Source of the DNA: a bacterium
GTDB lineage: Bacteria > Auribacterota > UBA3054
Reading direction: 5' to 3'
DNA: 64,000 bases
NCBI GenBank assembly: GCA_017557885.1
Contig: JAFYXV010000007.1
Location: 310,001-374,000, forward strand
The notes under the pieces were generated by a model, which saw nothing but the letters and a program-made list of their open reading frames with translations, did not search any database and had not been told where the DNA came from. Numbering within the stretch: the stretch's first letter is position 1; every line of letters begins with the position of its first letter. The position numbers and the translations under genes were made by a program. Positions 8,486 through 26,130 of the stretch are shown here, piece by piece.

Positions 8486-10060
8486 TTATTTCTTGGTTTT
8501 GGCAAGCTTGGCGGTGAAGCTTTTGCCTTCCTTATAGACCGTGTCGGCGGTCATCATTGCGCTGACGGTAGAGGCGTCCCTTAGGATAACGCTGACGTTT
8601 TGGGTGCCGCTATCCAGGCTGAACATGGTGTGCAGGTAGCATTCGTCGCTGTATTTGATCTTGCAGGTGTATTTGTTTTTCTTCTGGTCGAATTTGTACT
8701 GGAATTTGCCCACGGGCTCGAAATAATAATTCAGAAGCGAGACGGAGGCAGATGTCCCTTTCTTGTTGGCTTTGATGGTCTGTCCGCTTTGACTTAGGGG
8801 AATGAGCGCGCCGTTTAAGATCATGGCGGAATCGCCGATGACCGGCTCGAAGGTCTGCTTCGCGCCTTTGGCTTTGGGCTCAGTAATGGCTAGCGTTATG
8901 TCCATTGTGCTGGGAAGCGGTCCTTCCAGGTCGGCGGCTTTTTTAAGATTGGTCTTCAGGCTGAATTTGGGTACGGAAAGAGGGGACGGCTGCGCGGGAC
9001 TCGTGTTGATCTCGACATAGAGTTCCTGCCTGACGCAGGGGACGACGAAGTAGCAGAAGCCGTCTTGCTCCATCAGTCGCCCGAAGCAGCTCTTCTGCGG
9101 AATGGGGAAGGCCTGGATGTTGTTGGCAAGCTCCGGATTGCTGATATAGGGGTGCTGGCGCGTTATGTTATTGTGGTCCAGGAAAGCCAAGCCTCTGACG
9201 TAAAGTTCCGCGAAGGAGACCATGCCGTCGCCGTTCAGATCGCTGTAGGCGTCGCAGCCGAAAAAGAGTCCGCTGGTGAAGACGCTCAGAGTTTTGCCGC
9301 CGTAGGATTCCTCGTCTCCGCGGGAGGCGGTAAGGAAGGTCATGTCGTTCTTCATGTCCGCTTCGGCCTGCGCGACCGAGACGGAGAACTGCTTTGCTTT
9401 GATCTCCGCCAGCTCGCTTATTACGGCCTGAGCCAGGGCGGCGCTGGGGATCATGGCGCCGGAATAGCAGGCGTCCAGTATTATGACGATCTTGACGCCG
9501 GCCTGAAAGTAGGAAAGGTCGCTGGCCAGTTCGGAGGCGGTGTAGCGGGAGTCGTAGGTGGTCAGAGAGTAGGGGGAGTTGCCGCCGTGGCTCGACTGGT
9601 AATAGACGAAGAGGTCGCCGGAAGAGAGTGAATTGGCCGCGGCCCTTACTTGATTCCTGATGACGCTTGTCAGGGCGTTGGCGTCTTCCAAAAGCACGCC
9701 GTCTTCGCCTTTGAAATATCCGCCTTCCAGCAAAAGATTGGCCAGCGTCTCGGCGTCGTTAAGGCAAGACTTCAGGGAATTCAGTCCGCGGGAGGGGAGA
9801 TAATCGTTGATCCCCACGAAGAGCATCCTGCTTTTGTGATTGCTTACCTGTTTCGGAATGCCGGCGTAATCGAACCAGGACAACCCGTAGCCTGCCGGCA
9901 GAACGCCCCTGAAGGCGAAATTAGCCCCGTCCGCGACCTGGAAGACCATATTGGTCGTGTTGGCGGCATCGGCGCCGTAATGGACGTACACTTTGTGTTT
10001 TTCGGCGCCCAGGACGCCCAGGGCGAAAATCGTTGCCAGAACAGAGATCAGGAGTTTCAT
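8486..10060 (-). CDS. Secreted caspase-like (C14) protease with EF-hand loop, dyad intact (paralogue 1)
   Basis: Exported protein of 524 residues with signal peptide about 1-18. A short beta-rich N-terminal domain (20-75) is followed by a caspase/metacaspase-like p20 fold: strand RMLFVGINDY, SSHGG with the catalytic His158, and IILDACYSGAM with the catalytic Cys198. A canonical calcium-binding EF-hand loop follows, with D274, N276, D278, G279, V281, S282 and E285. The C-terminal 200 residues are beta-rich and end in YKEGKSFTAKL, a motif near the end of all five paralogues in this window. Metacaspase-like C14 enzymes usually cleave after Arg or Lys and many need calcium; specificity here is unknown. 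The protein is exported, unlike cytoplasmic defence-type caspases. A possible minus-strand extended -10 (TGATATAAT) lies upstream near 10160. It lies at one edge of the accessory block. Confidence 0.82.
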   Translation of the reverse strand: MKLLISVLATIFALGVLGAEKHKVYVHYGADAANTTNMVFQVADGANFAFRGVLPAGYGLSWFDYAGIPKQVSNHKSRMLFVGINDYLPSRGLNSLKSCLNDAETLANLLLEGGYFKGEDGVLLEDANALTSVIRNQVRAAANSLSSGDLFVYYQSSHGGNSPYSLTTYDSRYTASELASDLSYFQAGVKIVIILDACYSGAMIPSAALAQAVISELAEIKAKQFSVSVAQAEADMKNDMTFLTASRGDEESYGGKTLSVFTSGLFFGCDAYSDLNGDGMVSFAELYVRGLAFLDHNNITRQHPYISNPELANNIQAFPIPQKSCFGRLMEQDGFCYFVVPCVRQELYVEINTSPAQPSPLSVPKFSLKTNLKKAADLEGPLPSTMDITLAITEPKAKGAKQTFEPVIGDSAMILNGALIPLSQSGQTIKANKKGTSASVSLLNYYFEPVGKFQYKFDQKKNKYTCKIKYSDECYLHTMFSLDSGTQNVSVILRDASTVSAMMTADTVYKEGKSFTAKLAKTKK

Positions 10061-10256
10061 AGCGTTTTTTAAGTCAAGCCGTCTTGTATCCGGCTTTTTC
10101 GGCTGCTGGTTTAAGGTTTGCCTCTCTTTTAGTCATTTTAAGCAATTATATCAAATCCACCAAAGTCAACTCTTTTTATGTCGCGTTATTTCGACATCAA
10201 GGCTCTTTAAAGGACATGATGATCCAGTATAATGGACTCAACCAAACGAGGAAAAT

Positions 10257-10673
10257 ATGGCAAAGATCGTAAACATGTTGGAATTCAACGCGCAGAACGG
10301 CGACGCCGAGTCGCAGCTCAGGTGGGGAGACCGTCTGCTTTGCAGGGCGGAAGATCCGGATCCGGAAAAGGCCGTGGAGTGGTACCGAAAGTCCGCCGAC
10401 CAGGGCCATCCCGAAGCCTTCGGCAGACTGGCCGACTGTTACGCCGCGGGCAGAGGCATCCATCAGAATGTGGAATTGGCTTTTGATTACGCGACGAAGG
10501 GAGCCGAAAAAGGGGACAGCCACTGCATGTTCTTCATCGGCGAATTTTATTTCTACGGGATACTCGTGGAAAAAAATCGCCGGAAGGCCAAGGAATGGTA
10601 CAGAAAAGCCGCAAACAAATTTGATTTCGACGCGACTGAAAAATTGATAGAATGGACAGACAAGGAAGACTAA
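10257..10673 (+). CDS. Sel1-repeat protein
   Basis: Cytoplasmic protein of 138 residues, with no signal peptide, made almost wholly of Sel1-like (TPR-related) helical repeats. Repeat signatures are DPEKAVEWYRKSADQGHPEA, RLADCYAAGRGIHQN and NRRKAKEWYRKAAN, which give about three repeats. Sel1 proteins serve as scaffolds for protein-protein contacts; no partner can be named. A GAGGA Shine-Dalgarno lies just upstream and a TATAAT -10 at 10228-10233. The gene at 10695 follows after 21 bases, so the two probably form an operon. Confidence 0.8.
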   Translation: MAKIVNMLEFNAQNGDAESQLRWGDRLLCRAEDPDPEKAVEWYRKSADQGHPEAFGRLADCYAAGRGIHQNVELAFDYATKGAEKGDSHCMFFIGEFYFYGILVEKNRRKAKEWYRKAANKFDFDATEKLIEWTDKED

Positions 10674-10694
10674 GCAAAACTTACAGGATCTAAA

Positions 10695-11567
10695 ATGAGC
10701 AAACCACTTAATGATTTTTCCAAGCTGAACAAGACGATGATCAGGAAGCCGGAGCCTCCGAAACCCGCGCCGGCGGCGAAAAGCCGTCCTGCCGACGAGG
10801 AGGAGGAGTTCACCGAGGAGTATTTCCTGAGAGGGAAAAGGAATACAGACAAACATTACGCGCCCCACGAAGAGGATCTTCCCGGGGACGAGAAGGAATA
10901 CAAGATATCGGAACTCTCCAGCCAGCTCTCTGATCTGGAGCTTAAGATCAGACGGCAGGAGCAGAAGATAAAGGATCTCACCAGCGACCTGGAAGTCGCC
11001 AACGACACCATCCAGAAACTCCAGGCCCTCAGCGTCAGCGCCCTGGATCTGGAGAAGGAGAACGCCAGGCTGAAAAACGAGAACCGCCGCCTCGCCTCCG
11101 AACTGAAAAGACAGGAGACGGAAGCCGCGGCTCCCGAACCGGAATCCCAAACAGAACCGGAGCCCGTTCCCCAGGGAACGCTTTCGCTCACTTTCAAATC
11201 CGAAGAGCTTTTCCCCGGAGAGGCCCGGGAGTTGCTCCTGGCGGTCCTTAACGACGCGATCAAAAGCTGCCGCAACAACGACCAGCAGAGGCGCACGCAG
11301 ATCCTGGCGGACCTTCTGACCGCCAATCCCTCGACAGGGGAGATAAAGTCCAGGCTGGAGTTCTTCAACAAGCTCGTTACGGACTGCGACAAGTTCGTGG
11401 ACACCGACGTTCTCGCAAAGCTCAGAGAGCTGGGCATCGAGACCGTCAGCGGCAAGAATCACTGGAAGCTCCGCTACGGGAACATAACCTTCCCGCTGTC
11501 TAAGACGCCCTCTGACCGCCGCTCCCTGGCCAACAGCCTGAAAAACATCGAGAGAAAGATCTACTAA
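10695..11567 (+). CDS. Coiled-coil protein with small C-terminal alpha/beta domain, function unknown
   Basis: Hypothetical protein of 290 residues. Residues 1-65 are charged and probably disordered. About 70-140 form a long coiled coil (SQLSDLELKIRRQEQKIKDL and following heptads). A Glu/Pro linker follows at 140-160. The C-terminal domain ends with LRELGIETVSGKNHWKLRYG and a PSDRR motif. The last segment (G-x-N-H-W-K-L plus a beta hairpin and PSD) is reminiscent of small HicA or dsRBD-like folds, but this is only a resemblance. No signal peptide or membrane segment is seen. It is likely cotranscribed with the Sel1 gene. Confidence 0.55.
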   Translation: MSKPLNDFSKLNKTMIRKPEPPKPAPAAKSRPADEEEEFTEEYFLRGKRNTDKHYAPHEEDLPGDEKEYKISELSSQLSDLELKIRRQEQKIKDLTSDLEVANDTIQKLQALSVSALDLEKENARLKNENRRLASELKRQETEAAAPEPESQTEPEPVPQGTLSLTFKSEELFPGEARELLLAVLNDAIKSCRNNDQQRRTQILADLLTANPSTGEIKSRLEFFNKLVTDCDKFVDTDVLAKLRELGIETVSGKNHWKLRYGNITFPLSKTPSDRRSLANSLKNIERKIY

Positions 11568-11637
11568 GTCTTTATCTTCTGGTGATTTGAGGCCGGGATG
11601 CCTTTCTTTTGGAAAGGCTCCTGACCGCCCCCCCCTC

Positions 11638-11667
11638 TTGACAGTAATGAAATCTTTCTGATAGAAT
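11638..11667 (+). promoter_or_regulatory. Promoter and possible operator of the methyltransferase-like gene
   Basis: TTGACA, 18-base spacer, TAGAAT. Downstream, at 11688-11702, lies the inverted repeat AGTATT-AAT-AATACT, placed where a repressor could bind just after the transcription start. The Shine-Dalgarno AAGGAGG lies about 5 bases before the ATG at 11743. Confidence 0.6.
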
Positions 11668-11742
11668 ATTCGTGACATACTTATAAAAGTATTAATAATA
11701 CTTTGGCGAGTTAAGCGAATAACACAATACTAAGGAGGTCAT

Positions 11743-13356
11743 ATGATTCGCTTCGACAAAAAACAAAACCAATTTAAAAACATTTTTTCAAACATCAAAA
11801 GTCTTAAGAACGCCGGGAACACCGAAAAACTTGAAATAGTTTATAAGGTCTGGCTGACCAAAGAGCAAATATCCAGCGGCAAGGCCCAAGAGGATTCCGT
11901 TTACAATCTTATGATGAAAAACGGCAATCCGAAGGGTGAACTGTGCGTTGACGCCAAGGAAGCGACGCACCTCTATAACGTCATATCGGAGCTGGACGAC
12001 AGAGACATTATGGACCTGATCTCTTCGCTTACTTCAGCGGTCCTGGTTGGAAAGGCGCTGCTGGATAAGTTCAGAAAGACCGTCATGCGGCAGAACAACG
12101 GAAGAGATGCAAGCATCCTGCTTACCGACATTGAGTGCTACGGCTCAAATCTTCTCGATTTTCTGACGAGTTTCGACGGGAACGCCACGATCTCTCTTGC
12201 CACGGACAACTACATAGTTTTTGAGATCTACGTTAAACTCTTGAAAAAATACCACCCCGGCCTGGAATTTTACAACGTAGGCTTCTATGACTGTGACAGC
12301 ATAAGTAAATCCGTTATTAACGATCACAATGCGGTCCTGCTGCTGCCTTTCAATAAATTTATTGACGAGGATACTATGTACAGTTTCGACCTTAACGATC
12401 TTTACAGCTGGATAACATTGCTCACTGATCAAAAGAAGCCCGGCATGGTGATCGTGCCTATGCATTTCTTCCTGTCCCGCAGAACGGGCTTTGGCAGAGG
12501 AGAGTTCGCCAAGGGCGGCATATTAAAAGAGATCAGCACCATTCCCGCCTCGCTTCTGGGCATGCGTTCCATGACCAGATACGGCCTGTTTATAACTGGC
12601 AAATTCGGAGGCAAGGATCTGCTGGTCAGGAATTATGCCGATAAAAACGGCGAGCTGTTTGTCAAAGAGGAGGCAACGATCAAAAAGGACGCCGATTTCA
12701 TCGTCAATTCCGACCGTTCCAACGGCTGGAACGTCAACAAGTGGCTGAACCGATTGAATGAAGATGATGTAAAATTCTTCAGCAATAAAAAGCGTCTTGG
12801 CGAAATGGCCGACGTCATTCGCGGGAGGCTTTTCAAACAAGGGCACGATGAAGACAAAACGCGCGTGAAGATAGTTAACATCTCCGACATCGAAGACGGC
12901 TGTGTGAACGAGATCACAGAGGCCGTCGAGGCTGACCTGAGACATTGGGAGGATCATGTTTTAAGAAAAGACGACCTGCTGATAACGATCAAGGGCACGA
13001 CTATAAAGCTCGCGATCTTCGACAAGGACGACAGCCGCTACGTTGCCTCGCCCAACCTGTGCGCCATAAGGATAAAGTCCGAATTCAAGGATAACAAGCT
13101 CGTCGTTTCGTATCTGAAGTTGTACTTCGACCTGCCCTGCGGCAGGCGGCAGCTCCAGTCCATAAAACGCGGTTTGTTCGTTATGAACGTCAGCAAGGAG
13201 GACCTCCTTGACCTGCAGATCCCCGTTCCGGAGATCAACAGACAGAAAGCGCTTTGCGAAAAGTATAAAAACAGCTATGAGCAGTACAAGACAGAGATAG
13301 CCGCGGCTGAGGAAAAATGGAAAAAAGCTCAGGCGGAATTTTTACAGGAACTTTAA
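11743..13356 (+). CDS. Degenerate N6-adenine methyltransferase domain fused to a type I S-subunit-like TRD
   Basis: Protein of 537 residues that follows the layout of type I restriction-modification M and S subunits joined in one chain. The first 120 residues are helical. The region 124-206 aligns by position with the SAM-binding core, but motif I (normally DPxCGSG) reads LLTDIECYGSNLLDF, and the catalytic NPP(F/Y) position reads LPFNKF (201-206). The following strand GMVIVPMHFFLSRR, then ISTIPASLLGMRS and YGLFITGK, matches the usual VxPxGxLF, IxLPxxxF and LxFxK order of N6-methylases. From about 350 to 505 there is an HsdS-type target recognition domain (KRLGEMADVIRGR, VKIVNISDI, LLITIKGTT, DLQIPVPEINRQKALCEKY), then a coiled coil. 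Methylation is unlikely; DNA binding by the TRD is plausible. No HsdR or active HsdM is nearby. Confidence 0.65.
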   Translation: MIRFDKKQNQFKNIFSNIKSLKNAGNTEKLEIVYKVWLTKEQISSGKAQEDSVYNLMMKNGNPKGELCVDAKEATHLYNVISELDDRDIMDLISSLTSAVLVGKALLDKFRKTVMRQNNGRDASILLTDIECYGSNLLDFLTSFDGNATISLATDNYIVFEIYVKLLKKYHPGLEFYNVGFYDCDSISKSVINDHNAVLLLPFNKFIDEDTMYSFDLNDLYSWITLLTDQKKPGMVIVPMHFFLSRRTGFGRGEFAKGGILKEISTIPASLLGMRSMTRYGLFITGKFGGKDLLVRNYADKNGELFVKEEATIKKDADFIVNSDRSNGWNVNKWLNRLNEDDVKFFSNKKRLGEMADVIRGRLFKQGHDEDKTRVKIVNISDIEDGCVNEITEAVEADLRHWEDHVLRKDDLLITIKGTTIKLAIFDKDDSRYVASPNLCAIRIKSEFKDNKLVVSYLKLYFDLPCGRRQLQSIKRGLFVMNVSKEDLLDLQIPVPEINRQKALCEKYKNSYEQYKTEIAAAEEKWKKAQAEFLQEL

Positions 13357-13369
13357 AAAAAGAGCAACT

Positions 13370-14365
13370 ATGAAAAAAATAATTTTATATCACGGAACCG
13401 ATGAACGTCTGCTTCGTATGTCCGAGGAAGAACGCCAGGCCTACTTTAAGGCCGTTGACACCGCCATGGACTACGTTTACACGAAATTCAAGGAACGGGA
13501 ATTTTGCCAATACGACTCAATAGACGGCATCAACAAGCAGGTGAAGTCGCTTCACAAGGAAATGGATCGCGAGCAGCTTCTTCCGCTTTACAGCGCCTTG
13601 TACGTGACGGGAGCCTGGATAGCCGGATGTCGCTTTCTGATATTCAGGAAACTGTGCGCCACGAATTCCAGGGACAAGGCTTGCGAATACGCCCTCAATT
13701 CTTTTGCCGGCGGAGAACTGGCGGCGAAAACCTTTTTACTCATAAAGACGGCGGAGTATCTCCGGCTTCCGGGATATGATCCCCAGGGAGAGGCTAAGGC
13801 CGCCATTGAAACTGTGAAGGACTTCGCCGACAAGAAAAAAGCCGCGCCCGTGCTGGTCAGATTCGAGATAGACGATCCCGCCCAGCTGGAGTACCAGGGC
13901 GGAGGAGAAGTTGACGCAACGCAATTCGACGTTTGGTGCAAAGATTCCTGGCCCTTCGACGTATGCGTCAGGAAAAACATTTCCGAAGGCGAGATCGAGC
14001 GCCTTCAAAGCGAAACCGAAAACAACGACAACAAACAACCGGAGGATAAAAAAATGAAAAGCATCCAAGTTTTATGGATCCAGCTGATGGGCGAGAACTA
14101 TCACGAAGAAGATCCCAACAGGATCGTCGCGCTGGGAGGCGTGTACAATGACCAGAAGTGGGAAATGAGCCTTGAGGCGGTGGGCTCAGCCATCGCCAAC
14201 AAAGTCTATACCTTCTATATCAAGGTCTTCAACGAGGAACTGCCCCTGATCCCCGTTATGGACAAAAACGGGAAGATCTGCGATCTCAAGACGCCGAACG
14301 ACGTGGACGCCCTGAAGCTTCTGCGGCTCCTTCCCAAGAAGGACGAGTTCTACAACGGCATTTAA
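13370..14365 (+). CDS. Unknown protein with C-terminal DUF3892-like domain
   Basis: Reading frame of 331 residues, 13 bases after the methyltransferase-like gene and likely in its operon. Residues 1-205 are mostly helical with no recognised family. After an Asn/Gln/Lys linker at about 215-228, the C-terminal 103 residues resemble the stand-alone protein at 17255: I-x-V-x-W-x-x-L/Q-x-x-G, an LGG(V/T)Y turn, and a closing (K)TP(N/K)D then LKLL..LP. This pattern fits the DUF3892 family of small proteins. An ATG at 14054 (residue 229) has a GGAGG eight bases upstream, so the C-terminal domain may also be made separately. A strong hairpin (14390-14419) follows. Function unknown. Confidence 0.6.
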   Translation: MKKIILYHGTDERLLRMSEEERQAYFKAVDTAMDYVYTKFKEREFCQYDSIDGINKQVKSLHKEMDREQLLPLYSALYVTGAWIAGCRFLIFRKLCATNSRDKACEYALNSFAGGELAAKTFLLIKTAEYLRLPGYDPQGEAKAAIETVKDFADKKKAAPVLVRFEIDDPAQLEYQGGGEVDATQFDVWCKDSWPFDVCVRKNISEGEIERLQSETENNDNKQPEDKKMKSIQVLWIQLMGENYHEEDPNRIVALGGVYNDQKWEMSLEAVGSAIANKVYTFYIKVFNEELPLIPVMDKNGKICDLKTPNDVDALKLLRLLPKKDEFYNGI

Positions 14366-14389
14366 CGCCCGCAAAAAAGCCGCGCTTAT

Positions 14390-14419
14390 AGCGGCGGACG
14401 GCATACGCTGTCCGCCGCT
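14390..14419 (+). terminator. GC-rich hairpin, possible weak terminator
   Basis: Ten-base perfect stem AGCGGCGGAC / GTCCGCCGCT with a ten-base loop, 25 bases past the stop of the preceding gene. It lacks a good T run (only TTCCATTTT), so termination is uncertain. Confidence 0.4.
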
Positions 14420-14548
14420 TCCATTTTGATGGTCGCGGGGATATGCGTTTTTTGTGACAGTTTCCGCTTAAAAACAGCGGATAAAAATGGTACAATATTT
14501 CAAACTGAAGGCAGATTGCCAAGCGCGCTTAGCCCCAAAGAACGAAAC

Positions 14549-15517
14549 ATGAAAAAACTTCTTTCTTTCCTTGCCAAATCTTACTGTTTACCGCTATTAA
14601 TTTTAGTGGTAATGTGCGGCTGCGTCAGGGCCGACGAAAAAGCGGAACCCAAAAGCTCCGATTCTCCGGCGCTCTTCTGCTATACCTGGAACATGGAGTG
14701 GTTCCCCGCAGGAAAAGACGACGAATTCAAAGCCAAAGCCGACGAAAGGATCAAAACGGCGGGGGAGAAACTCTCTGCCGCCGCCCAAACCCTGCAGGAA
14801 AACTCATCCTCGGCGGAGCAGATATTCTTCTTCCAGGAGATCAACGGCAGCGCCACCTGCAACAAACTTATAAGCCGTCTTAACAACCCCAGGCTAAAGA
14901 TCGCCTCCATCAGTTCTTTCTACCGCGCTAAAAACCAAAAAGACAAACAGCAGATCGCCATCCTGACCACTCTCCCTGTTCTGGAACATTCCTATGAAAG
15001 ATGGCGCAACGAAGACGGCATCAAGCCTCCCAGAGGTTACACATACGCGCTTCTTGACTATAAGGACGCGTATATAGCCTGCTTCGGATTGCATCTGAAA
15101 GCGAACGGCGCGGAAAACGAGTTCTCGCTGGTAAAGCAGCAAAGGGAAACTTCCTCTCGCCAGCTCCTAAGAAAAATAAAGGAAGTTAAAGACAGCCACA
15201 CCAACAGAATCGTCCGCGTGATCATCGCCGGCGACTTCAACACCAACGTTGACGACAAGAAGTTCCTGCAGGAGGACACCCTCCGCTCTCTCTACGCCGC
15301 CCACTACCGCAGCTGCTTCAGAGACCTCAAGCCCAAGGACCGCGTCACCCATCCGGGCAGGGGAAAATATGCCGACACCACCTTCGACTACATCCTCTAC
15401 AAAGATTTTCCCAACGATCCCCAGACCAAGATCTTCCCGGGCACCGGAATATCCGACCATCACATCGTCGGCGCCAAGTTCGAGCAGCATGAAAAAACGA
15501 ATAATATCAAGTTATAA
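14549..15517 (+). CDS. Secreted endonuclease/exonuclease/phosphatase-family protein
   Basis: Protein of 322 residues with an N-terminal hydrophobic export signal containing a Cys-Gly-Cys near the cleavage region, so it may be a lipoprotein although the lipobox is not typical. The rest fits the EEP (DNase I-like) superfamily. Signature elements are TWNMEW with FFQEING (metal-binding Glu), IAILTTLPVLEHS, FGLHLKANG, IIAGDFNTN and, at the end, SDHHIVGAKF with the catalytic Asp-His. Such enzymes hydrolyse phosphodiester or phosphomonoester bonds in nucleic acids, nucleotides or lipids; the substrate cannot be read from the sequence. The ATG at 14549 is chosen because it begins the signal peptide; the frame is open upstream to 14426. 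Possible -10 TACAAT near 14492. Confidence 0.75.
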   Translation: MKKLLSFLAKSYCLPLLILVVMCGCVRADEKAEPKSSDSPALFCYTWNMEWFPAGKDDEFKAKADERIKTAGEKLSAAAQTLQENSSSAEQIFFFQEINGSATCNKLISRLNNPRLKIASISSFYRAKNQKDKQQIAILTTLPVLEHSYERWRNEDGIKPPRGYTYALLDYKDAYIACFGLHLKANGAENEFSLVKQQRETSSRQLLRKIKEVKDSHTNRIVRVIIAGDFNTNVDDKKFLQEDTLRSLYAAHYRSCFRDLKPKDRVTHPGRGKYADTTFDYILYKDFPNDPQTKIFPGTGISDHHIVGAKFEQHEKTNNIKL

Positions 15518-15681
15518 AAACTATTTTAAGTACAATTCAATTGTGGGCTTTTAGAAATGAATGATAAAAATGGAAAAAGCAATGCCTTAGGAAGATAGCC
15601 ACTATGTTAGCGATAAGTTTAACTATTTTGTATTGTTGAACGCTAGTAAAAATTGAAGCATAAGTAAAATAAACGAGACAT

Positions 15682-16290
15682 ATGAGTGAACTGAAACACA
15701 CGGAAAGTGGCATTTACTATCTTTATGACTATATTCCTAAAAGTTACTTTGAATATCATACTGAAAAAGAGATCAAAGTAACTGAAAAGACATGGGACTA
15801 TAAAGATGGTAAAGAACCTGCTGTTTTTGATTTTACATATGAATTAATGGCAGCGATATCGGAAATGTCTAAGAACATTTCTGACACTAAAATTGCTTTG
15901 CTTGCCGTGCCTCCGTCAAAAGTTGGAAAGATATCGACTATAGGAACTTCAATACAAATTATTTCTGAATGGTATAAAACAAAAATCACGTCAGAATTAT
16001 TTATGTGTAACAAAGAAATTATCAATTGCGGATGTTTGTTAACCAGATCATCGGACATTTCTACAGCTCATTTGAGTAGAAGGCCCGATTATGCTGAAAA
16101 CAAAAATGCAATTGAATTTAACAAAAGTGTTTTGCCTGAAGATGGTGTTAGCTTCTTTATTCTGGATGACATCACGACTAAAGGGACAAGCATGGATGTT
16201 TGTCAAGACATATTGGTGGAACATGGAGTTCAAAAAGGGAAAATTTATAGATTGGCGATAGCTAAAACGATTTTGGAGATTAATCGATGA
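15682..16290 (+). CDS. ComF-like phosphoribosyltransferase-fold protein
   Basis: Protein of 202 residues without a signal peptide. The C-terminal half has the type I PRTase PRPP-binding loop as FFILDDITTKGTSM (normally DDVxTTGxT), with a preceding LLTRSSDISTAHLSRR segment, as in ComF and its relatives. The usual ComF zinc finger is absent; only isolated cysteines are seen. The stop codon overlaps the start of the DprA-like gene (ATGA at 16287), so the two are translationally coupled. In competence systems ComF and DprA act with single-stranded DNA uptake, but this pair sits alone in an AT-rich stretch beside conflict-type genes. It could belong to the SLOG/PRTase nucleotide-centred systems described for prokaryotic conflict. 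That role is inferred. Confidence 0.65.
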   Translation: MSELKHTESGIYYLYDYIPKSYFEYHTEKEIKVTEKTWDYKDGKEPAVFDFTYELMAAISEMSKNISDTKIALLAVPPSKVGKISTIGTSIQIISEWYKTKITSELFMCNKEIINCGCLLTRSSDISTAHLSRRPDYAENKNAIEFNKSVLPEDGVSFFILDDITTKGTSMDVCQDILVEHGVQKGKIYRLAIAKTILEINR

Positions 16291-17254: not shown

Positions 17255-17638
17255 ATGAGAGATATTGAAGTTTCCTGGGTGGAACTGGCCGGACCGAAGG
17301 CCAAGGATCCCGATCAGCTGATGCTTTTAGGCGGAACTTACGGCGGCAGGGAATGGAGCATGCGTCCCGAGGCCATGGCCATGGCGATCGACAGGGGGCT
17401 GTATGCTTTCCATGCGGTGGTTTTCGAAGAGGTCTTGCCGGTCGTTTTGATAAAAAACGCCGCCGGGAAGGTCTGCGGGTTGGGGACGCCCAAGGATATC
17501 GGCCCCCTGAAGCTCCTGCTGACGCTTCCAGGGCGTTCTTCCTCAAAGGGCGATGAGAAGACCGTGACGGTGACAAAAGCGCGTAATTTGGGCGCTGGGG
17601 CGAAAAAAACGGTTGCCACGAAGAAGACCGTGAAGTAG
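17255..17638 (+). CDS. Small DUF3892-like protein with basic tail
   Basis: Protein of 127 residues with AAGGAGG before the ATG. The first 97 residues match the C-terminal domain of the gene at 13370: IEVSWVELAGP, MLLGGTYGGREW, FEEVLPVVLIKN and GTPKDIGPLKLLLTLPG. The last 30 residues are Lys/Ala/Thr-rich (KKTVATKKTVK), which suggests nucleic acid or membrane-phosphate contact. DUF3892 proteins have no established function. It lies between the PRTase-DprA pair and a membrane acyltransferase. Its GC-rich codon use resembles the host genome rather than the AT-rich pair. Confidence 0.6.
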   Translation: MRDIEVSWVELAGPKAKDPDQLMLLGGTYGGREWSMRPEAMAMAIDRGLYAFHAVVFEEVLPVVLIKNAAGKVCGLGTPKDIGPLKLLLTLPGRSSSKGDEKTVTVTKARNLGAGAKKTVATKKTVK

Positions 17639-17642
17639 ATCC

Positions 17643-18737: not shown

Positions 18738-18742
18738 AAAAA

Positions 18743-18772
18743 GAAGGCCTCCTTTCGGGAGGCCTTCCTTTT
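18743..18772. terminator. Bidirectional terminator between convergent genes
   Basis: GAAGGCCTCC / GGAGGCCTTC stem with a five-base loop, flanked by A-rich and T-rich tracts. It can serve the NagX-like gene on the plus strand and the caspase-like gene on the minus strand. Confidence 0.85.
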
Positions 18773-18790
18773 TGCAGTTGTTTTCTTGTT

Positions 18791-20341
18791 TTATTTTTTG
18801 ATAAGGGTGGCGGAGAAGGATTTTCCTTCCTTGTATTTTTTGGAAACGGAGATGGGGAAGCTCATGACTTCTCCGTGGCTGATCAACGTCAGATCGACGA
18901 GCTGCCTGTCTTCTCCCAAAGGCGTGAAGGCTTCCCAGAGATTGAGGACCTCGTTCAGTTTCAGCCTGAACTTGGCTTCCCCTTTCTTTTCGTTGACCTT
19001 TATCTGGAAAGTGCCGAGGGAGAAGAAATTGTAGTCCATGATCTCATAGGTCTTGGTGGTCCCGTTCTTGTTGGATTTGGAGGGCTGCCCGGTCTGGCCT
19101 AAGACGACAGGATATTTGTTGATCCATAAAGTGGCGCTGAAGTTTTCAACTTTGGCTTTTATTCCGGGCTTGAACTTGTACGTAAAGGCAAGGTCGAATT
19201 TAGTGGGGAACAGGGGATCAAACTCATAGCGCTTGAAGTTGACTTTAAGGGACTGCTTGGTGACGGTATAATTCGGTTTTTCTTCGATTGGGGCGTCGTT
19301 TACCGTTATGTTAAGATCCTGGCTGACGTTCGAGAAAGAATAGCCGAAGTAACCGTCTTCAAGTTCCAGATACCCGTAGGATTCCGGCTGGGGGATCGGA
19401 GAAGCGAAGAGCGAGTCGCCGAGAGAGGGGTTGCTGATATAAGGTTCCTGCCAGCCAATGGGGACTACGAAGGAGTAAGCCCTGTTGAAGAGCTCGGAGA
19501 AGGAAATGAGGCCGTCTTGATCTTCATCGGTGAGGGAATCGAAAGCAAAAACCAAGCCCGAGGTGAAAAGGCTGTAGAAATCCGAGGTGTAGGAATATTC
19601 GTCGCTTTGGCTGGCGGTGATGAAGAGAGAGTCGTTCTTAAGGTCGGCGGCGGCTTGGGCGGCGGAGATGCCGCATTTTTTGGCTTTGATATTCGCCATT
19701 TCTGTTTGGATGGCTTCGGCCATGGCTTCGGGTGGGATCATGCCGGCGGAGAAGCAGGAGTCCAAGATGACGATGATTATTACGCCGTCCTTGAATTTGG
19801 CGAGGTCTTCGGCTAACTCAGTGGCGAAATATTCCTCATCGTAGGCGCAAAGGCAGAAGGGATCGTCTCCGCCGTGGCTGGAATGGAAGTAGAGGAAGAT
19901 GTCGCCAGGGTTAAGAGACTCGGAGGCTGCGGAGATCTTTTTCCTGATGGAGTCCTTGGTGGCGTTTTCATTGTTCAATATGGTGGCGTTTTTCGCGTTG
20001 AAATAGCCCAGACCAGTAAAGCCTTCCGCCATGCCCTGGGAGTCGTTCACGCAGGTGTCGAGGGATCCCGGATCGAATTCTGGATCATATTCGTCGATGC
20101 CGACGAAGAGGGAGATGTTGTGGCGGTCTGATTGAGCGATCTTGCCTTCCCAAGAGGCATTTTTTATAAACCTGCCGGAGGGAACGGATCCGCCGCCGAC
20201 GAAGAATCCGCCGGGAGAAACGGAGGCGGTGTAGTTCGTGGAGTAGCCGTCAATAGAGTTGTAGGTGAAGGTCACCTGATAGGCGAGAAGAGTGCTCGCC
20301 GCGAAAGCGACTGAGAGCGCGATTGCTGAAAGTTTTTTCAT
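18791..20341 (-). CDS. Secreted caspase-like (C14) protease with EF-hand loop, dyad intact (paralogue 2)
   Basis: Exported protein of 516 residues, paralogous to the gene at 8486. It has signal peptide 1-20 (ASTLLAYQ), a beta-rich N-terminal domain with STNYTASVSPG, and a caspase-like core: LFVGIDEYD, LDTCVNDSQG, FHSSHGGDD with catalytic His156, and VILDSCFSAG with catalytic Cys196. The EF-hand loop is intact (D272, D274, D276, G277, I279, S280, E283). The beta-rich C-terminus ends YKEGKSFSATLIKK. The pattern D(S/A)C(F/Y)S is the canonical metacaspase/caspase active-site context, so activity is expected, probably in the periplasm or outside the cell. A minus-strand extended -10 (TGCTAAAAT) is visible about 50 bases upstream. 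Together with the gene at 8486 it brackets the accessory block. Confidence 0.82.
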   Translation of the reverse strand: MKKLSAIALSVAFAASTLLAYQVTFTYNSIDGYSTNYTASVSPGGFFVGGGSVPSGRFIKNASWEGKIAQSDRHNISLFVGIDEYDPEFDPGSLDTCVNDSQGMAEGFTGLGYFNAKNATILNNENATKDSIRKKISAASESLNPGDIFLYFHSSHGGDDPFCLCAYDEEYFATELAEDLAKFKDGVIIIVILDSCFSAGMIPPEAMAEAIQTEMANIKAKKCGISAAQAAADLKNDSLFITASQSDEYSYTSDFYSLFTSGLVFAFDSLTDEDQDGLISFSELFNRAYSFVVPIGWQEPYISNPSLGDSLFASPIPQPESYGYLELEDGYFGYSFSNVSQDLNITVNDAPIEEKPNYTVTKQSLKVNFKRYEFDPLFPTKFDLAFTYKFKPGIKAKVENFSATLWINKYPVVLGQTGQPSKSNKNGTTKTYEIMDYNFFSLGTFQIKVNEKKGEAKFRLKLNEVLNLWEAFTPLGEDRQLVDLTLISHGEVMSFPISVSKKYKEGKSFSATLIKK

Positions 20342-20564
20342 TTGATCTTTATTTAAGATTGTTATTCAGATATTGACTTTAATAATTTTAGCATATATCT
20401 AGAACCAGTTTGATGTTTTGACAAAAAGTGATACTATTCCTTGTTCTTATCAGGGGAATAATCACATTTAAGCCCTTTAAATATGTCCCGTTTCTTAATA
20501 ATAGTGCCGGTTTTTGATATAATTAAAACGGAATAATTGATTTAATCTTTTTTGGGCATATTAA

Positions 20565-20906
20565 ATGGAAAAAAGAGTAGAAAAAATATTAAATGAATAT
20601 GTGGATGTAGTAAAGAATATCTACAAGGAACATATTCAGCAGATCATCCTATACGGTTCCTATGCGAGAGGGGACTATAGAGATGATTCTGATATTGATA
20701 TTATGATTCTTCTTGATATTCCTGATATGAAGATAAAAGATTATCGTCATACTCTCTCGAATTATACATATGATTTCAATATAGATAATGATGTTGACAT
20801 AAAGCCTATAGCCAAAAACGAGGCTCACTTTAACAAGTGGGCCGTCAATTATCCTTTTTACAACAACATCAGGAATGAGGGAATAAGGCTGTATGGAACC
20901 AAATAG
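20565..20906 (+). CDS. MNT-type nucleotidyltransferase (MNT/HEPN pair)
   Basis: Protein of 113 residues of the minimal nucleotidyltransferase family. The defining motif is LYGSYARGDYRDDSDIDIMI (GS...R...DxD). MNT proteins pair with HEPN toxins and neutralise them, in known cases by adding AMP residues. An upstream TATAAT with TGA extension is at 20515-20523. The composition is AT-rich compared with flanking genes. Its partner HEPN frame starts at 20893, overlaps its last 14 bases, and is interrupted by a stop. Confidence 0.85.
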   Translation: MEKRVEKILNEYVDVVKNIYKEHIQQIILYGSYARGDYRDDSDIDIMILLDIPDMKIKDYRHTLSNYTYDFNIDNDVDIKPIAKNEAHFNKWAVNYPFYNNIRNEGIRLYGTK

Positions 20907-21303
20907 TGATAGTGGCTCCAGAAAAGATTTGATGTTGTATAGAATGAGTACTGCCAAAGAGAATTTGGCAGAGGCGAAATTGTTGTTGTCTTAAAATCTT
21001 TTTAAAGGCGCTAACAACAGGGCGTATTATGCTATTTTTCACGCCATAAACGCGATCTTTGCGCTGGACGGAAAAAGTTATAGACGCCATAAAGATGTTC
21101 TGGGAAATTTTAACAAAGAGTATGTTAAAACTGGTGCTTTTCCTAAGGATCTAGGCAGCAGGATCGTGGCAGCAGAGGAAATCAGACATACAAGCGATTA
21201 TGACGATTTCTATATTGCGACGAAAAATGAGGCTGAAGAAATAATAGATACAGCTGAAGAATTTATCAAACTTGCGGAAAAGTTTTGTGAGTCTCAAGTT
21301 TGA
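20893..21303 (+). pseudogene. HEPN-domain toxin gene interrupted by an in-frame TAA
   Basis: Reading from the ATG at 20893 gives MEPNSDSGSRKDLMLYRMST and then AKENLAEAKLLLS, followed by TAA at 20992-20994. The same frame then stays open to a TGA at 21301-21303. The continuation includes NLFKGANNRAYYAIFHAINA, with the HEPN RNase motif R-x6-H (RAYYAIFH), and a helical tail (AAEEIRHTSDYDDFY). Without the stop this would be a 136-residue HEPN protein partnered with the upstream MNT. The stop lies where relatives have a polar residue, so a CAA-to-TAA change is the simplest explanation. A sequencing error is an alternative. As read, the conserved RNase motif is not translated. Confidence 0.75.
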
Positions 21304-21331
21304 TTCAAGTTATAGAAGAGAGAAAGAATAA

Positions 21332-21883
21332 TTAATATTCATAGCCCGGACGAAAAAGGATGGTCTGCATCAGATTCTCTTCAACCATGTCTGACAAAGA
21401 ATTATATTCGTAGGTCGATTCGTCAGGTTTGTCGCTGCTATCAGATTTCTCTTTCGATCCTTCGTTCGGCTCCTTCACAGTGATTGGGTTTTCAAAGTAT
21501 CCCAAAGTCGCTAGATCAAAAACAGTCAGGCCAAGGAATGTCGGAACTCCCAGGGTCATCATTAAGACCGGGGTTACTACAGGATATGTTCCATGTGCCG
21601 GTACGAAGGAAACAATTGGACCTAAGACTACCCAAGACAAAGGGCGCGCGAAAGCGAAGGGATGAATACTCGGAAGATCCGATTCGTCAACACGGTCTGT
21701 TTCCTGATTGGTTTCCGCCACTGCCACCGGTATCGCCTGTTTAACCGTTTCTTCTCCTTTGGCTTTTTCATCATTTATGATGTTGCCCTTCTCGTCATAA
21801 TTGTAAAACTCAACTGTTACGCATGACGACAGGGTTGTCATCATGAGGAGCGTTGCAAGAGTTAGGAGAATTTTGGACTTCAT
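21332..21883 (-). CDS. Predicted lipoprotein, last gene of the pseudocaspase operon
   Basis: Protein of 183 residues with a lipoprotein signal (LLMMTTLSSCVTVEFY; lipobox LSSC). The middle carries a hydrophobic stretch (PVVTPVLMMTLGVPTFLG), and the tail is rich in Glu, Ser, Asp and Lys. No family is recognised with confidence. The ATG at 21883 is chosen because it starts the signal peptide; the open frame continues upstream into the preceding gene. It starts 28 bases after the caspase-like gene at 21912 on the same strand, so it is the fourth gene of that unit and its product may be a membrane partner of the exported caspase homologues. Confidence 0.6.
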   Translation of the reverse strand: MKSKILLTLATLLMMTTLSSCVTVEFYNYDEKGNIINDEKAKGEETVKQAIPVAVAETNQETDRVDESDLPSIHPFAFARPLSWVVLGPIVSFVPAHGTYPVVTPVLMMTLGVPTFLGLTVFDLATLGYFENPITVKEPNEGSKEKSDSSDKPDESTYEYNSLSDMVEENLMQTILFRPGYEY

Positions 21884-21911
21884 TTTTGGAAGGCCCTGAC
21901 GGAAATGAGGT

Positions 21912-23288
21912 TTACTTTTTTCTGGGGAATTTGGCGGTGAGGGTCTTTCCGGGCTTGTAGGTCTTCTGGAAGGGGACCATGGGGTGGAAGAGGATAGAGA
22001 AGTCCCTAAGGGATACCTGGATCTCTTCGGGGCTGGAGTCGAGGGTGAAGGCGTCGGCCAGGAAGCTCTTTTCGCTGAAGGTGAGTTTGCCAACAAGGGT
22101 CTTCTTGTTTATGGTGAGTTTGCCGACGGTCTTGAACTCGTAATTCTCTATCGTGTAAGTGACGGAGGACTTGGATTCCTTTATTTTTCTGCCTATGGGG
22201 ATGCAGATCCGGTCAAGGTATAGGGCCGGGGAGACGAAGTCGTAGTAGGGGAAGAGGGCCTCAAGGGAGAACTTGGTGGGGTACGAGGGGCCGCCGTCTT
22301 TCAGTTTGGCCTGGAGGGAGCCTTTTCGGACTTCGAGAAGATTATCCCAGGTGCCTTTCCAGCTGCCTTCCTCTATGTAAAGCTCCAGGTCGGAGTCCAC
22401 CGCGGGGACCCAGGCGGTGAAGTCGTTTTTACTTACCCGGATCCAGCCGTCGCATCCGACTTCGGGAGCCAGGGCCCAGTAAAGGGGAGAAGAGATCTCG
22501 CCGTATCCGTAATAGGGCGAGAGCTTCGATTTGATGGCGATGAGGTAATTCCTGGCGCGGTAGTACATTTCCGTGAAGGAAAGCAGTCCGTTGCCGTCGC
22601 CGTCGGTGACATTGTCGAAGGAGCGGTCGAGGGCGAGAGTGAAGGGGCTCATCTGCTCCTTGTACTTCTTGGAAATGTTCTTATCGCAGTATATGTAGAC
22701 GCGTTCATTTTTAAGAACGTAAGGGACGAAATCCCTGGCGTTGTCGGCGTCTATTATGACGACGATCCTTACGTTGGTGTCGAAGAGTGATAGGTCCGAG
22801 ACGAACTCGTCCGTGGTGTAGACTTCGTCGTTATAGAGGAGCAGTCCGCCGTCTTTAACCGTGCCGGTGAAGTAGAAGAGGAGGGTATCCTTGATGGCGA
22901 GCTGGGAGGCCTGGCCCTTTATGAAGCCTCGGACGGTGTCCTTGGTCGCCAGGGAGCCGTAGAAGGAGTACTTGGTGAAGATGGTGTTGCAGATCTTATC
23001 TATGCACTCCATGTCGTGGTAGGCGAGCTGAGACCCTTCACTTGTTTCCTGTCCTACGATGAGGGCGACGTTCTTGTCGTACTGCTGGGGGGAGATCCTG
23101 TGGATCCTGAAGTTCTTGACGCCATCCTGGCCCGATGAGATCTGGTTCACATAGTAGAAGTCCTCGCCGGGGGGGACGGTGGTGAAGAAGTTCGTGCCGT
23201 AGTCTTTGCTTTCATATTCTACGTGGATCTGATAGGCGCTTGCGGTCAAGCAGGCGGCTGCCAGAAGAAGTACGGAGAGCCGATGCAT
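21912..23288 (-). CDS. Secreted pseudocaspase with EF-hand loop (paralogue 3)
   Basis: Exported protein of 458 residues, homologous to the caspase-like genes at 8486 and 18791 in layout: signal peptide (ASAYQ), YGTNFF...PPGEDF N-terminal domain, caspase-like core, EF-hand, and beta-rich C-terminus ending YKPGKTLTAKFPRKK. Both catalytic positions are changed. The SSHGG His site reads FYFTGTVKDGG (Thr143), and the DACYS site reads VIIDADNAR (Asp182). The EF-hand loop is complete (D229, D231, N233, G234, L236, S237, E240). The fold is therefore kept without protease chemistry. A Shine-Dalgarno (GAGGAG) lies inside the end of the preceding gene, two bases separating stop and start. Confidence 0.75.
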   Translation of the reverse strand: MHRLSVLLLAAACLTASAYQIHVEYESKDYGTNFFTTVPPGEDFYYVNQISSGQDGVKNFRIHRISPQQYDKNVALIVGQETSEGSQLAYHDMECIDKICNTIFTKYSFYGSLATKDTVRGFIKGQASQLAIKDTLLFYFTGTVKDGGLLLYNDEVYTTDEFVSDLSLFDTNVRIVVIIDADNARDFVPYVLKNERVYIYCDKNISKKYKEQMSPFTLALDRSFDNVTDGDGNGLLSFTEMYYRARNYLIAIKSKLSPYYGYGEISSPLYWALAPEVGCDGWIRVSKNDFTAWVPAVDSDLELYIEEGSWKGTWDNLLEVRKGSLQAKLKDGGPSYPTKFSLEALFPYYDFVSPALYLDRICIPIGRKIKESKSSVTYTIENYEFKTVGKLTINKKTLVGKLTFSEKSFLADAFTLDSSPEEIQVSLRDFSILFHPMVPFQKTYKPGKTLTAKFPRKK

Positions 23289-23290
23289 AG

Positions 23291-24730
23291 TTATCTCCTC
23301 TTGTCAAGTTTGGCGGAGAAAGTCTTTCCGGGCTTGTAGGTCTTTAGGAATGAGAGTCCGGCGCCTGAAAGCATTCCGCGGCAGTTGATCATCAGGGGAA
23401 CGATCTCTTCGCCGTCCTCGAACTTGAGTTCGTTGGCTATCTTGGACGTGCTCTTGAGGTTGATATTGCATTGGCAATATCCTTTTTTTATGCTGAATTT
23501 AAACTTGGACGTGATATTGAAATCGTAGTCAACCGTGGCCATGGTGAGGCTGCGCTCGGTCTCTTTCAAGAAAGTGTCGAAGGGCATGAAGTAGTTCCCG
23601 AAGTTAATGGATAAATAGTCGATCTCCGGAATATCTTCAACGTTGAAAGTGAGGGAGAGCTTGGTGGGATAATTGGGGCCGGCTTCCTTTAAGTTAGCGT
23701 TCAGGGAGGCTTTCTGAGGAGTGATGACATAGTCCGACCTCGTTTCGCCTTCCTCAAGGTAGACTATGGCGTCGCTCTGGATGTTGGGAAGCATGAACTT
23801 GAAAGTGTCGTCCTCGTGATTGACATAGACTCTTCCGTTGCTGGAAACGTAGGGGACGGGGGAGAGGTATATCTTGGAGGCGAGCTCCTGGTTGTTCATG
23901 CTCGGCTGGTTGGTAAGCTTTTTGGAAGCGAGCCAGGCCTTGGCCCTGAGGAAATATTCGTCGCAGGAGAGGAGTCCGTCTTCGTTCAGGTCGGTCACAT
24001 TGGCGCGCGACAACCACATTCCCATTGTGAAGGGGCTGACTTCTTCCTGCCATTTGCCGACGATCTTTCTCCATTTTTTATGCTTGGCGGGAAGGTTTTT
24101 GTCGGAGGCGATCATGAGGAAGTTCTTGTTGTCTTTCTGGATCCCCTTGTTGGCGAGCAGGTGGGCATTGTCGGCGTCCAGCACGACGATGATTATGACG
24201 CCGTCCTTGAAGAGCGAGAGGTCCTCGGCGAATTCAGTGGAAGTGTAGTTGTCGTCGTAGAGGGCCATGCTCGCGTCGGAATTGATTATGCCGGAGTAAT
24301 AGAAGAGGAAAGTGTCGCCCTTTTCGTAATTGGCGGCGCATTCCTGGAAGATCTCCCGAATGCGGTCTTTTTTGACTTTTATGTCTGTCATAATTTCCCT
24401 ATTAGGGAAGTACTCGGCGACATACTCGCCCATGACGTAGGCGTCGTCAGCGAACATTTCATCATAGAGTGGAAGATCCGTAGTCGACTCGGATAGTCCT
24501 ACAAAGAGCCCGGCGTTGGCATGAGCGATCTGGTCGGGCAGACGGGAGACCGTCATCTTGGTCAGACTTTGCTCAAAGGTCAGTTTCCCATTGTAGGTGA
24601 AGTCTTCTCCGGGAGAGACCACGGCGGTGAAGTTCGTTCCGTATTCGGCCCCGGCGAAAGTGAAGTCGATCTCGTAGGCTAGCGCTGCCTGGGCAAGGAG
24701 GAGAACTGCTAAGGCGAAAAGATTTTTCAT
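23291..24730 (-). CDS. Secreted pseudocaspase with EF-hand loop (paralogue 4)
   Basis: Exported protein of 479 residues of the same family: signal peptide ending ALAYE, EYGTNFTAVVSPGEDF domain, caspase-like core. At the catalytic His position it reads FLFYYSGIINSDA (Ile148), and at the Cys position VVLDADNAH (Asp187), so both residues are lost. A good EF-hand loop (DLNEDGLLSCDE) and the C-terminal YKPGKTFSAKLDKRR motif remain. The start codon overlaps the stop of the upstream paralogue (ATGA), implying translational coupling and coordinated amounts. It is most like the gene at 21912 (both read DADNA at the former Cys), so they probably arose by duplication after inactivation. Confidence 0.75.
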   Translation of the reverse strand: MKNLFALAVLLLAQAALAYEIDFTFAGAEYGTNFTAVVSPGEDFTYNGKLTFEQSLTKMTVSRLPDQIAHANAGLFVGLSESTTDLPLYDEMFADDAYVMGEYVAEYFPNREIMTDIKVKKDRIREIFQECAANYEKGDTFLFYYSGIINSDASMALYDDNYTSTEFAEDLSLFKDGVIIIVVLDADNAHLLANKGIQKDNKNFLMIASDKNLPAKHKKWRKIVGKWQEEVSPFTMGMWLSRANVTDLNEDGLLSCDEYFLRAKAWLASKKLTNQPSMNNQELASKIYLSPVPYVSSNGRVYVNHEDDTFKFMLPNIQSDAIVYLEEGETRSDYVITPQKASLNANLKEAGPNYPTKLSLTFNVEDIPEIDYLSINFGNYFMPFDTFLKETERSLTMATVDYDFNITSKFKFSIKKGYCQCNINLKSTSKIANELKFEDGEEIVPLMINCRGMLSGAGLSFLKTYKPGKTFSAKLDKRR

Positions 24731-26130
24731 TTCTTATAGGTGGCGGTTAAGGATTTGCCATCTTTAAAGACGACGTTGTAAACGACAGAGGGGGTATGGA
24801 CGCTGTCGATGAAATATCTTGTGGCTATGCGGGCGGGGCAGGGGCTGGATGATTCGGGGAAGATGTTGTTGAGAGCCCCGGCGGAGTTGACGCTGAGCTT
24901 GCAAGTGTAGCCGCCTTTCTTCAAGTCTTCCTTGATTTGGCAGCTGCCGATCTTCCTGAACCAGTAGTCCTCGATCACGTAGTTGTGGGAGCCGCTTTTG
25001 CTTGTCTTGTATTCCGGGCCTATGAAGATCTTCGCGCCGTTGATCTCAAATCCCGGGGTCGAGACGGAGTAGGTCTTCGCTGTGTAGTCGATGGTGAACT
25101 TGGCTTCGCCTTTCTTGATGTTTTTCTTGTAAGCGCTCTTCTTGATCTCGACGGTGGTGTCCTGGCTGCTGCCCGTTTCCTCGATGTAGACGAAGGTGTA
25201 GGAATTGACGCAGTCAAGGTAGGCGCTGACGCTGTTGTAGTCAACGCTGACGTACCCGTCGGTGGTTCGGTCCTGGTAGTCGGTGAAATAGACCTCCTGC
25301 TCGATGTCGCAGTTGATCCTTACGATCACGTCCTGGTCCTGTTTTACGCTCCTTGTGTATTGGTGGGCCCTTTGGTACATTTCCATAAATGACAGGAGGC
25401 CGTCTTTGTTATCGTCGGTCTGAGCGCTCACGCATCTTTTGAGGGCGTAGGTGAAGGGACTCAGCTCGGTTTTCCATTTTTTCTTTACGGGCTTGTTGCC
25501 GGTCATGACGCAGGTGGTCTCGGCGAACATGTCGGTCATCTTGGAGGCGTACTCGGCGTCCAGCACGACGATGATCTTAACGCCGTCCTTGAAATGCTGG
25601 AAAAGGGTGTCGAGATTTTCTACGAACAGGAAGCCGTCGTAGCAGGCAACTCCCGGGATCTCGTCGTAGCCGCGGGACGAATGGTAGTAGAAGAAGGTGT
25701 CGCCGGCCTCAAGCTTGTCGGCGGCGGACTTGATCTCGTTTTCTATTCTGTCCCTGGTGGCGTCGGCGTTTTTCAAAACCACCTGGTGGTTGCAGAAAAT
25801 GTCGGTCGCCCCTCTGATGAAGGTCGTGTCGGCTTCGCAGGTCGTCAGTTTCGGAAGGTATTCGTCTTTGTACTCGTCCACGCCTACTATCAGGGAAGCG
25901 TTTTTGGAGTAGCGCTTGAACTGCTCCGGCTGGCGGGTGACCAAAAAGCGGCTGATCCTTTTGGAGGAATCCCTTTTGAGCGTGACGGAAAAAGGCTTGC
26001 CCGGTTCGACGTCCGTGACATAGTTGGTGCCGTAAAACTCGCTTTCAAATTGGACATGCACGTCGAATTTGTTCGCCAGGGCGGAAAGGGCCGCCAGGCA
26101 CATAACGACGACTAAAAGTTGGATCTTCAT
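24727..26130 (-). CDS. Secreted pseudocaspase with EF-hand loop (paralogue 5), first gene of operon
   Basis: Exported protein of 467 residues when read from the ATG at 26130, which has AAGGAG six bases upstream and begins the signal peptide MKIQLLVVVMCLAALSALAN. The family layout is FYGTNYVTDVEPGKPF, then SLIVGVDEY, then an altered dyad. The His motif reads YYHSSRGYDE (Arg153 in place of His, with the SS and G retained), and the Cys motif reads VVLDAEYAS (Glu193). EF-hand loop DDNKDGLLSFME is intact, and the C-terminus ends FKDGKSLTATYKK. The Arg position still shows the active-site context of the functional paralogues, so this copy looks less diverged than the other two pseudoenzymes. A possible promoter with TGATAGAAT lies about 80 bases upstream. 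Confidence 0.75.
   Translation of the reverse strand: MKIQLLVVVMCLAALSALANKFDVHVQFESEFYGTNYVTDVEPGKPFSVTLKRDSSKRISRFLVTRQPEQFKRYSKNASLIVGVDEYKDEYLPKLTTCEADTTFIRGATDIFCNHQVVLKNADATRDRIENEIKSAADKLEAGDTFFYYHSSRGYDEIPGVACYDGFLFVENLDTLFQHFKDGVKIIVVLDAEYASKMTDMFAETTCVMTGNKPVKKKWKTELSPFTYALKRCVSAQTDDNKDGLLSFMEMYQRAHQYTRSVKQDQDVIVRINCDIEQEVYFTDYQDRTTDGYVSVDYNSVSAYLDCVNSYTFVYIEETGSSQDTTVEIKKSAYKKNIKKGEAKFTIDYTAKTYSVSTPGFEINGAKIFIGPEYKTSKSGSHNYVIEDYWFRKIGSCQIKEDLKKGGYTCKLSVNSAGALNNIFPESSSPCPARIATRYFIDSVHTPSVVYNVVFKDGKSLTATYKK

Follow-up and report, generated by a model that had tools for sequence, protein, structure and literature searches.

Catalytically dead caspase-like paralogues in an operon with an exported live relative: candidate non-catalytic partners of a bacterial protease

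Why would a bacterium keep, in one operon, several caspase-like proteins that have lost both catalytic residues? The question is raised by a 64,000-nucleotide stretch of an Auribacterota genome (assembly GCA_017557885.1, contig JAFYXV010000007.1, positions 310,001 to 374,000 of the forward strand; hereafter the window), in which five paralogues, two apparently intact and three dead, are encoded between positions 8486 and 26130. An earlier note, made from the sequence alone, had read them as an extracellular calcium-regulated system with pseudoenzyme partners. Our preferred reading, held tentatively and at a little under an even chance, is that at the cell envelope the dead copies serve the live protease of the operon as decoys or as partners that bind without catalysis; confidence is held down because the partnership rests on operon linkage and conserved alignment columns.

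All five paralogues were found as minus-strand open reading frames, with the places, sizes and motifs first described for them. The genes and the residues at their catalytic positions are as follows.

8486..10060, minus strand: intact caspase-like protein, predicted exported, 524 aa (Pfam C14, 38 bits, and alignment)
9587-9589, minus strand: catalytic His158 of the 8486 copy (motif alignment)
9467-9469, minus strand: catalytic Cys198 of the 8486 copy (motif alignment)
18791..20341, minus strand: intact caspase-like protein, predicted exported, 516 aa, the live operon member in relatives (Pfam C14, 56 bits, and model)
19874-19876, minus strand: His156 of the 18791 copy (motif alignment)
19754-19756, minus strand: Cys196 of the 18791 copy (motif alignment)
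21912..23288, minus strand: dead copy T/D, 458 aa (alignment and model)
22860-22862, minus strand: Thr143 of the 21912 copy, at the His position (alignment)
22743-22745, minus strand: Asp182 of the 21912 copy, at the Cys position (alignment)
23291..24730, minus strand: dead copy I/D, 479 aa (alignment)
24727..26130, minus strand: dead copy R/E, 467 aa, heading the operon and overlapping the next gene by 4 bases (alignment)

The alignment columns agree with the division into two copies that keep the catalytic dyad and three that have lost both residues and kept an EF-hand loop. SSHGG is found together with DACYS in the 8486 copy and with DSCFS in the 18791 copy, and all 19 intact rows of the alignment carry the His-Cys dyad in SxHG and DxC motifs, whereas the same columns hold R/E in 24727, I/D in 23291 and T/D in 21912. 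Each of the five begins with a hydrophobic stretch that runs up to a site of the A-x-A or G-A type, as judged from the sequence itself and consistent with the export that had been proposed, and each carries the C-terminal (Y/F)K(E/P/D)GK(S/T) motif. An alternative TTG start would make the 24727 protein 16 aa longer. The same genome encodes a sixth paralogue, with an intact dyad, on a different contig. The Pfam Peptidase_C14 model (cut-off 21.4 bits) detects the two intact copies of the window and none of the dead ones, which routine annotation would therefore miss.

Structures were predicted with AlphaFold2 from family alignments for one intact copy (18791; model numbering is one lower than in the protein, the first Met being omitted) and one dead copy (21912), giving pLDDT values of 85.6 and 84.7 and pTM values of 0.84 and 0.81, respectively. 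The closest structures were metacaspase-4 of Arabidopsis (6w8r), with Z 20.9 over 209 residues at an rmsd of 2.8 for the 18791 model and Z 20.7 for the 21912 model, and GSU0716 of Geobacter (Z 20.7 and 19.8), followed for both models by caspases and legumains. These matches span the caspase core only, and the N- and C-terminal flanks are predicted to be beta-rich. As judged by the models, the caspase fold of the core is common to live and dead copies (Z about 20 for each), as the earlier note had expected; the alignment behind the dead model included intact relatives, which favours the same fold, and the sequence homology is itself secure. The C-terminal beta domain is conserved in all the paralogues. 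That it might be a general surface-anchoring domain of this genome was rejected, since the domain profile matched only the six paralogues.

Of the genomes searched, all eight from the genus contain full-length relatives and the other 36 from the phylum contain none; the named records come from the ruminant gut (buffalo reticulum and rumen, sheep rumen, yak omasum). Live copies were found in 8/8 of these genus genomes and dead copies in 6 or 7 of the eight (all but G007), several of these assemblies being fragmented. Outside the genus the nearest match is to the core region of an intact G021 protein (L075), which has a signal-like start and the same linker and EF-type loop, and in which a FRPSSGLW-type repeat region replaces the C-terminal beta domain. 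In a tree rooted on the G021 protein and built without the columns of the dyad, linker and EF loop, 19/19 dead rows formed one clade against the intact rows with support of 100/99. Catalytic activity was therefore probably lost once, after which the dead copies would have diversified; six residue pairs replace the dyad (R/E, I/D, V/D, T/D, Q/N and Y/V), and the stems of the dead classes are 0.8-1.4 changes per column long, a strong divergence between classes.

Across the dead clade no alignment column holds an invariant His or Cys, and the catalytic residues have therefore not simply moved. Relocation was accordingly rejected, and the copies appear to be truly dead at the dyad, as had been claimed. 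Could the replacing residues instead support a different chemistry? Asp or Glu takes the place of Cys in three classes and is constant within each; however, the replacements vary between classes (E, D, V, N) and the invariant columns hold no shared new catalytic pair, and we consider such an activity very improbable.

The dead genes might also be decaying pseudogenes, given that the R/E copy of G002 is split by a frame change (L041:4806-6210) and the T/D copy of G006 runs past its normal end (L040:6713-8560), both through decay or assembly error, and that a Q/N gene has been deleted from the window. Against this, frames are full length in most genomes, functional columns are conserved, and pairwise dN/dS is mostly 0.14-0.40 across all five dead classes, with one close R/E pair at 0.54. 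Intact orthologues fall in the same range, and the dead copies are therefore maintained. Pseudogene decay is rejected by dN/dS, is largely refuted by the conserved columns as well, and is in our view scarcely credible.

The dead copies differ from the intact ones at the p20/p10 linker and resemble them at the S1 pocket, for which the following features of the 18791 copy serve as reference.

19634..19741, minus strand: p20/p10 linker, residues 201-236, containing Lys219 (alignment)
20042-20044, minus strand: S1-pocket acid Asp100 (profile alignment to TbMCA2)
19760-19762, minus strand: S1-pocket acid Asp194 (profile alignment to TbMCA2)

All dead copies lack most of the linker: 11-21 residues separate the catalytic Cys strand from the next strand, where intact copies have 40-44. 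It is in this linker that metacaspases are processed, after Lys or Arg. A basic residue is found there in 20/20 intact sequences, including the outside relative, the position of Lys219 being Lys or Arg throughout. Loss of the linker would thus fit proteins that need no maturation, if intact copies are processed here as metacaspases are.

In TbMCA2, Asp95 and Asp211 hold basic side chains (PMC6426788). By profile alignment they correspond to Asp100 and Asp194 of the 18791 copy, and these two pocket residues would predict cleavage after Arg or Lys by the intact copies. Both columns are invariant in 18 of the 18 dead rows counted, and in the intact rows. Four of six chosen functional positions are invariant, compared with 18 of 192 columns (P ~7e-4, an indicative value, with columns taken as independent and relatedness uncorrected). 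A Lys-rich stretch replacing DExSY had suggested loss of the substrate pocket in the dead copies, a reading that was rejected because the acids of the pocket proved to be the CxND and DxC aspartates, both of which are kept. The pattern is most likely that of proteins still able to bind basic segments and unable to cut them.

Gene order ties the dead copies to a live one. In genome G004 the R/E, I/D, T/D and Q/N genes, a lipoprotein gene and the gene for an intact protease follow one another in that order on one strand; neighbouring genes overlap by 4 bases at three junctions and stand 2 and 6 bases apart at the other two. Partial orders consistent with this arrangement are found in G000, G002, G003 and G005: G002 has R/E (split), I/D, lipoprotein and intact protease; G003 has four dead genes, the lipoprotein gene, a toxin-antitoxin pair on the opposite strand and the intact gene; and in G005 the contig ends within the lipoprotein gene. 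The further features of the locus in the window are as follows.

21332..21883, minus strand: lipoprotein gene, 183 aa, lipobox LSSC (operon position)
21911..22003, minus strand: recombination scar, 93 bases, matching the 3' ends of both the T/D and the Q/N genes of G003
20565..20906, plus strand: MNT nucleotidyltransferase gene, antitoxin type (PF01909, PF18765)
20894..21304, plus strand: HEPN toxin-type gene, with an early in-frame stop in the window and an intact copy in G003

The scar matches both 3' ends, as expected of recombination between paralogues, and the T/D protein of the window ends like a Q/N protein. The window holds a derived version of the locus: it shares the G003 layout, inserted toxin-antitoxin pair included, but has lost the Q/N gene by deletion. 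The tight operon of three dead copies seen by the earlier note is confirmed, with the amendments that one dead gene has been lost here and that the lipoprotein gene also belongs to the operon. The lipoprotein is conserved in five genomes (lipobox SSC) and had no match in Pfam.

The MNT-HEPN pair stands between the lipoprotein gene and the live caspase gene. A toxin-antitoxin module likewise adjoins the live caspase gene of MaOC1 in Microcystis (PMC7935541), but here the protease carries a signal for export, and neither G004 nor G002 has the pair. The pair so looks like a chance insertion outside the ancestral operon, and it was rejected as a part of the system.

Collectively, these observations suggest a locus for an exported protease set, comprising in each operon one intact caspase/metacaspase-like cysteine protease, three to four dead paralogues, and a lipoprotein that may anchor the set. 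The dead proteins have a caspase fold without nucleophile, His or processing linker, and their kept pocket acids and outer calcium-loop ligands would let them bind basic peptide segments without cutting. Live and dead proteins would be made from one transcript and act at the cell envelope, where the dead partners may bind or shield Lys/Arg-rich substrates, or pair with the protease to set its activity. A more specific proposal, that three to four co-transcribed dead metacaspase-like subunits and the lipoprotein assemble with one live protease at the envelope or outside the cell and control its cutting, having diversified after a single catalytic loss, we regard as unlikely in that full form.

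The chief rival holds that the dead copies are independent surface binders, that is, adhesins or ligand receptors on a caspase scaffold, which are co-transcribed with the protease merely by descent through tandem duplication. We consider this possible but doubtful. The long stems that separate the dead classes and the beta domain conserved in every paralogue suit it, as do the solitary dead copies of G001 and the published view that pseudo-orthocaspases work apart from active ones (PMC6426788), whereas it is weakened by the keeping of exactly the S1-pocket acids in all dead classes and of the operon link to a live gene and a lipoprotein in several genomes. Several points do weigh against the dead copies being partners or decoys of the live protease. 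The two dead copies of G001 (Y/V) lie away from a live gene; G006 has dead genes without the lipoprotein and live end of the operon; and in G007 there are two live copies but no dead copy, showing that live copies can do without dead ones. Moreover, the pocket Asp residues are possibly structural instead, and Klemencic et al. 2019 (PMC6426788) argued that the pseudo-orthocaspases of prokaryotes with true ones as well are most likely not regulators.

A further alternative, closest to the original proposal, is an extracellular switch in which calcium binding at the EF loop would activate the live protease and dock its dead partners. The loop is indeed present in all five copies, each by PROSITE PS00018.

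9206-9241, minus strand: EF-hand loop DLNGDGMVSFAE of the 8486 copy, residue 274
19493-19528, minus strand: EF-hand loop DEDQDGLISFSE of the 18791 copy, residue 272
22569-22604, minus strand: EF-hand loop DGDGNGLLSFTE of the 21912 copy, residue 229
23957-23992, minus strand: EF-hand loop DLNEDGLLSCDE of the 23291 copy, residue 247
25381-25416, minus strand: EF-hand loop DDNKDGLLSFME of the 24727 copy, residue 239

There is exactly one such match per protein, all five fall in one alignment column, and fewer than 1% of shuffled versions had any match. Helices flank the loop in both models (257-266 and 280-294 in the live one, 215-225 and 238-251 in the dead one), and in the dead rows the loop never varies at positions 1 and 12 and has either Asp or Asn at positions 3 and 5. 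The pattern matches, the helices and the invariant ligands would suit a switch; however, the loop is not distinctive of these proteins. A generic 37-residue probe covering the loop and its flanking helices (the p10 helix-loop-helix) retrieved 110 plasmid records from Actinobacteria, Bacteroidota, Cyanobacteria and Proteobacteria, and among the matches listed most of the annotated ones are caspase family proteins (Nonomuraea, Streptomyces, Runella, Stanieria, Rippkaea, Nostoc, Rhizobium and others). The loop is at the same place in four Lewinella homologues and, by a pattern looser than PS00018, in the in-phylum G021 homologue; another in-phylum homologue type (L065-L067, L084, L089) was examined and is without it. 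EF-hand motifs have also been noted in seven archaeal orthocaspases (PMC6426788). A calcium loop special to this family was thus rejected, the same loop being widespread at the same place in bacterial C14 proteins.

The switch is also disfavoured by Pfam EF-hand scores of 12.3 and 11.8 bits, below cut-offs of about 25, by the EF-hand being single and unpaired, and by loss of the Gly at loop position 6 in the Q/N and Y/V classes; calcium may be constitutive and structural. Calcium binding by the loop is plausible as a trait of the wider family, with a structural role as likely as a regulatory one. An ordinary loop of bacterial C14 proteins is therefore by itself no indication of a calcium-regulated system, and we judge the switch improbable. 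What stands of the original proposal is the caspase fold of live and dead copies, their export signals, the dead copies kept by selection and their operon with a live copy in relatives.

How far is this arrangement new? Bacterial pseudo-caspases are already known, making up 8.6% of bacterial orthocaspases and 4 of 1,121 p10-bearing bacterial metacaspases (PMC6426788), and in an earlier survey 16% lacked an intact dyad (Asplund-Samuelsson et al. 2012, PMC3501461). The 18791 model aligned to metacaspase-4 through the p10 half, as judged by structure. The dead copies are pseudo-caspases in the sense of p20 homologues with one or both dyad residues replaced (by alignment, and for T/D by a fold match of Z 20.7). 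Like prokaryotic pseudo-orthocaspases and pseudo-metacaspases, they have a C14-type p20 with both catalytic residues replaced, keep the fold and the two pocket Asp, and are conserved through evolution. Known pseudo-orthocaspases, however, come to 90% from Alphaproteobacteria and Cyanobacteria and are mostly Y/S or Y/N (PMC6426788), whereas R/E, I(V)/D, T/D, Q/N and Y/V are found here in a ruminant-gut genus, several of them share an operon with a live copy and a lipoprotein, and the loss extends to the p20/p10 linker.

The best sequence and fold matches, GSU0716 of Geobacter sulfurreducens (3bij) and type I/II metacaspases (4afr, 6w8r), have the same p20-p10 order and share the pocket Asp pair with the intact copies; they differ in that the dyad is present and their operons hold no dead partners, and we know of no export signal plus beta-domain architecture among them. 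Dead homologues that pair with a live one, or are processed by it, are known from c-FLIP(L)/caspase-8 and TbMCA4/TbMCA3 (PMC6426788). Those proteins are eukaryotic and intracellular, whereas here the likeness rests on operon linkage, and there is no sign of common descent of the dead state. A search of the open-access literature found no description of an operon that combines several dead copies with a live one. The operon of a dead set with a live protease is a new variation on known bacterial pseudo-caspases. Dead caspase homologues are common in some bacteria and have no agreed job, published opinion being against a regulatory effect on live ones; the compact set of four dead copies, a lipoprotein and one live copy in a single operon is a defined small system that makes the question of regulation testable. 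If the proposed partnership is true, it would place pseudo-caspase pairing outside eukaryotes and outside the cell.

Among the neighbouring genes, a DUF805 membrane protein gene lies near 8486-type intact copies (window 7522-8478; L048:5788-6729; L055:10005-10958) and may be linked to them; DUF805 was assigned in the window copy, and the L048 and L055 copies were recognised by sequence resemblance. A type I restriction specificity-domain protein (window 11743-13356) is encoded between the two intact caspase genes, in a mixed, possibly mobile stretch. Exported proteins with PEP-CTERM-like ends flank the locus (window 5964-7418 and 27602-29140, the latter below the Pfam cut-off), and the caspase-like proteins themselves are without such an end. 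An exosortase is encoded elsewhere in the genome (G000:C7:401000-401812, 126 bits).

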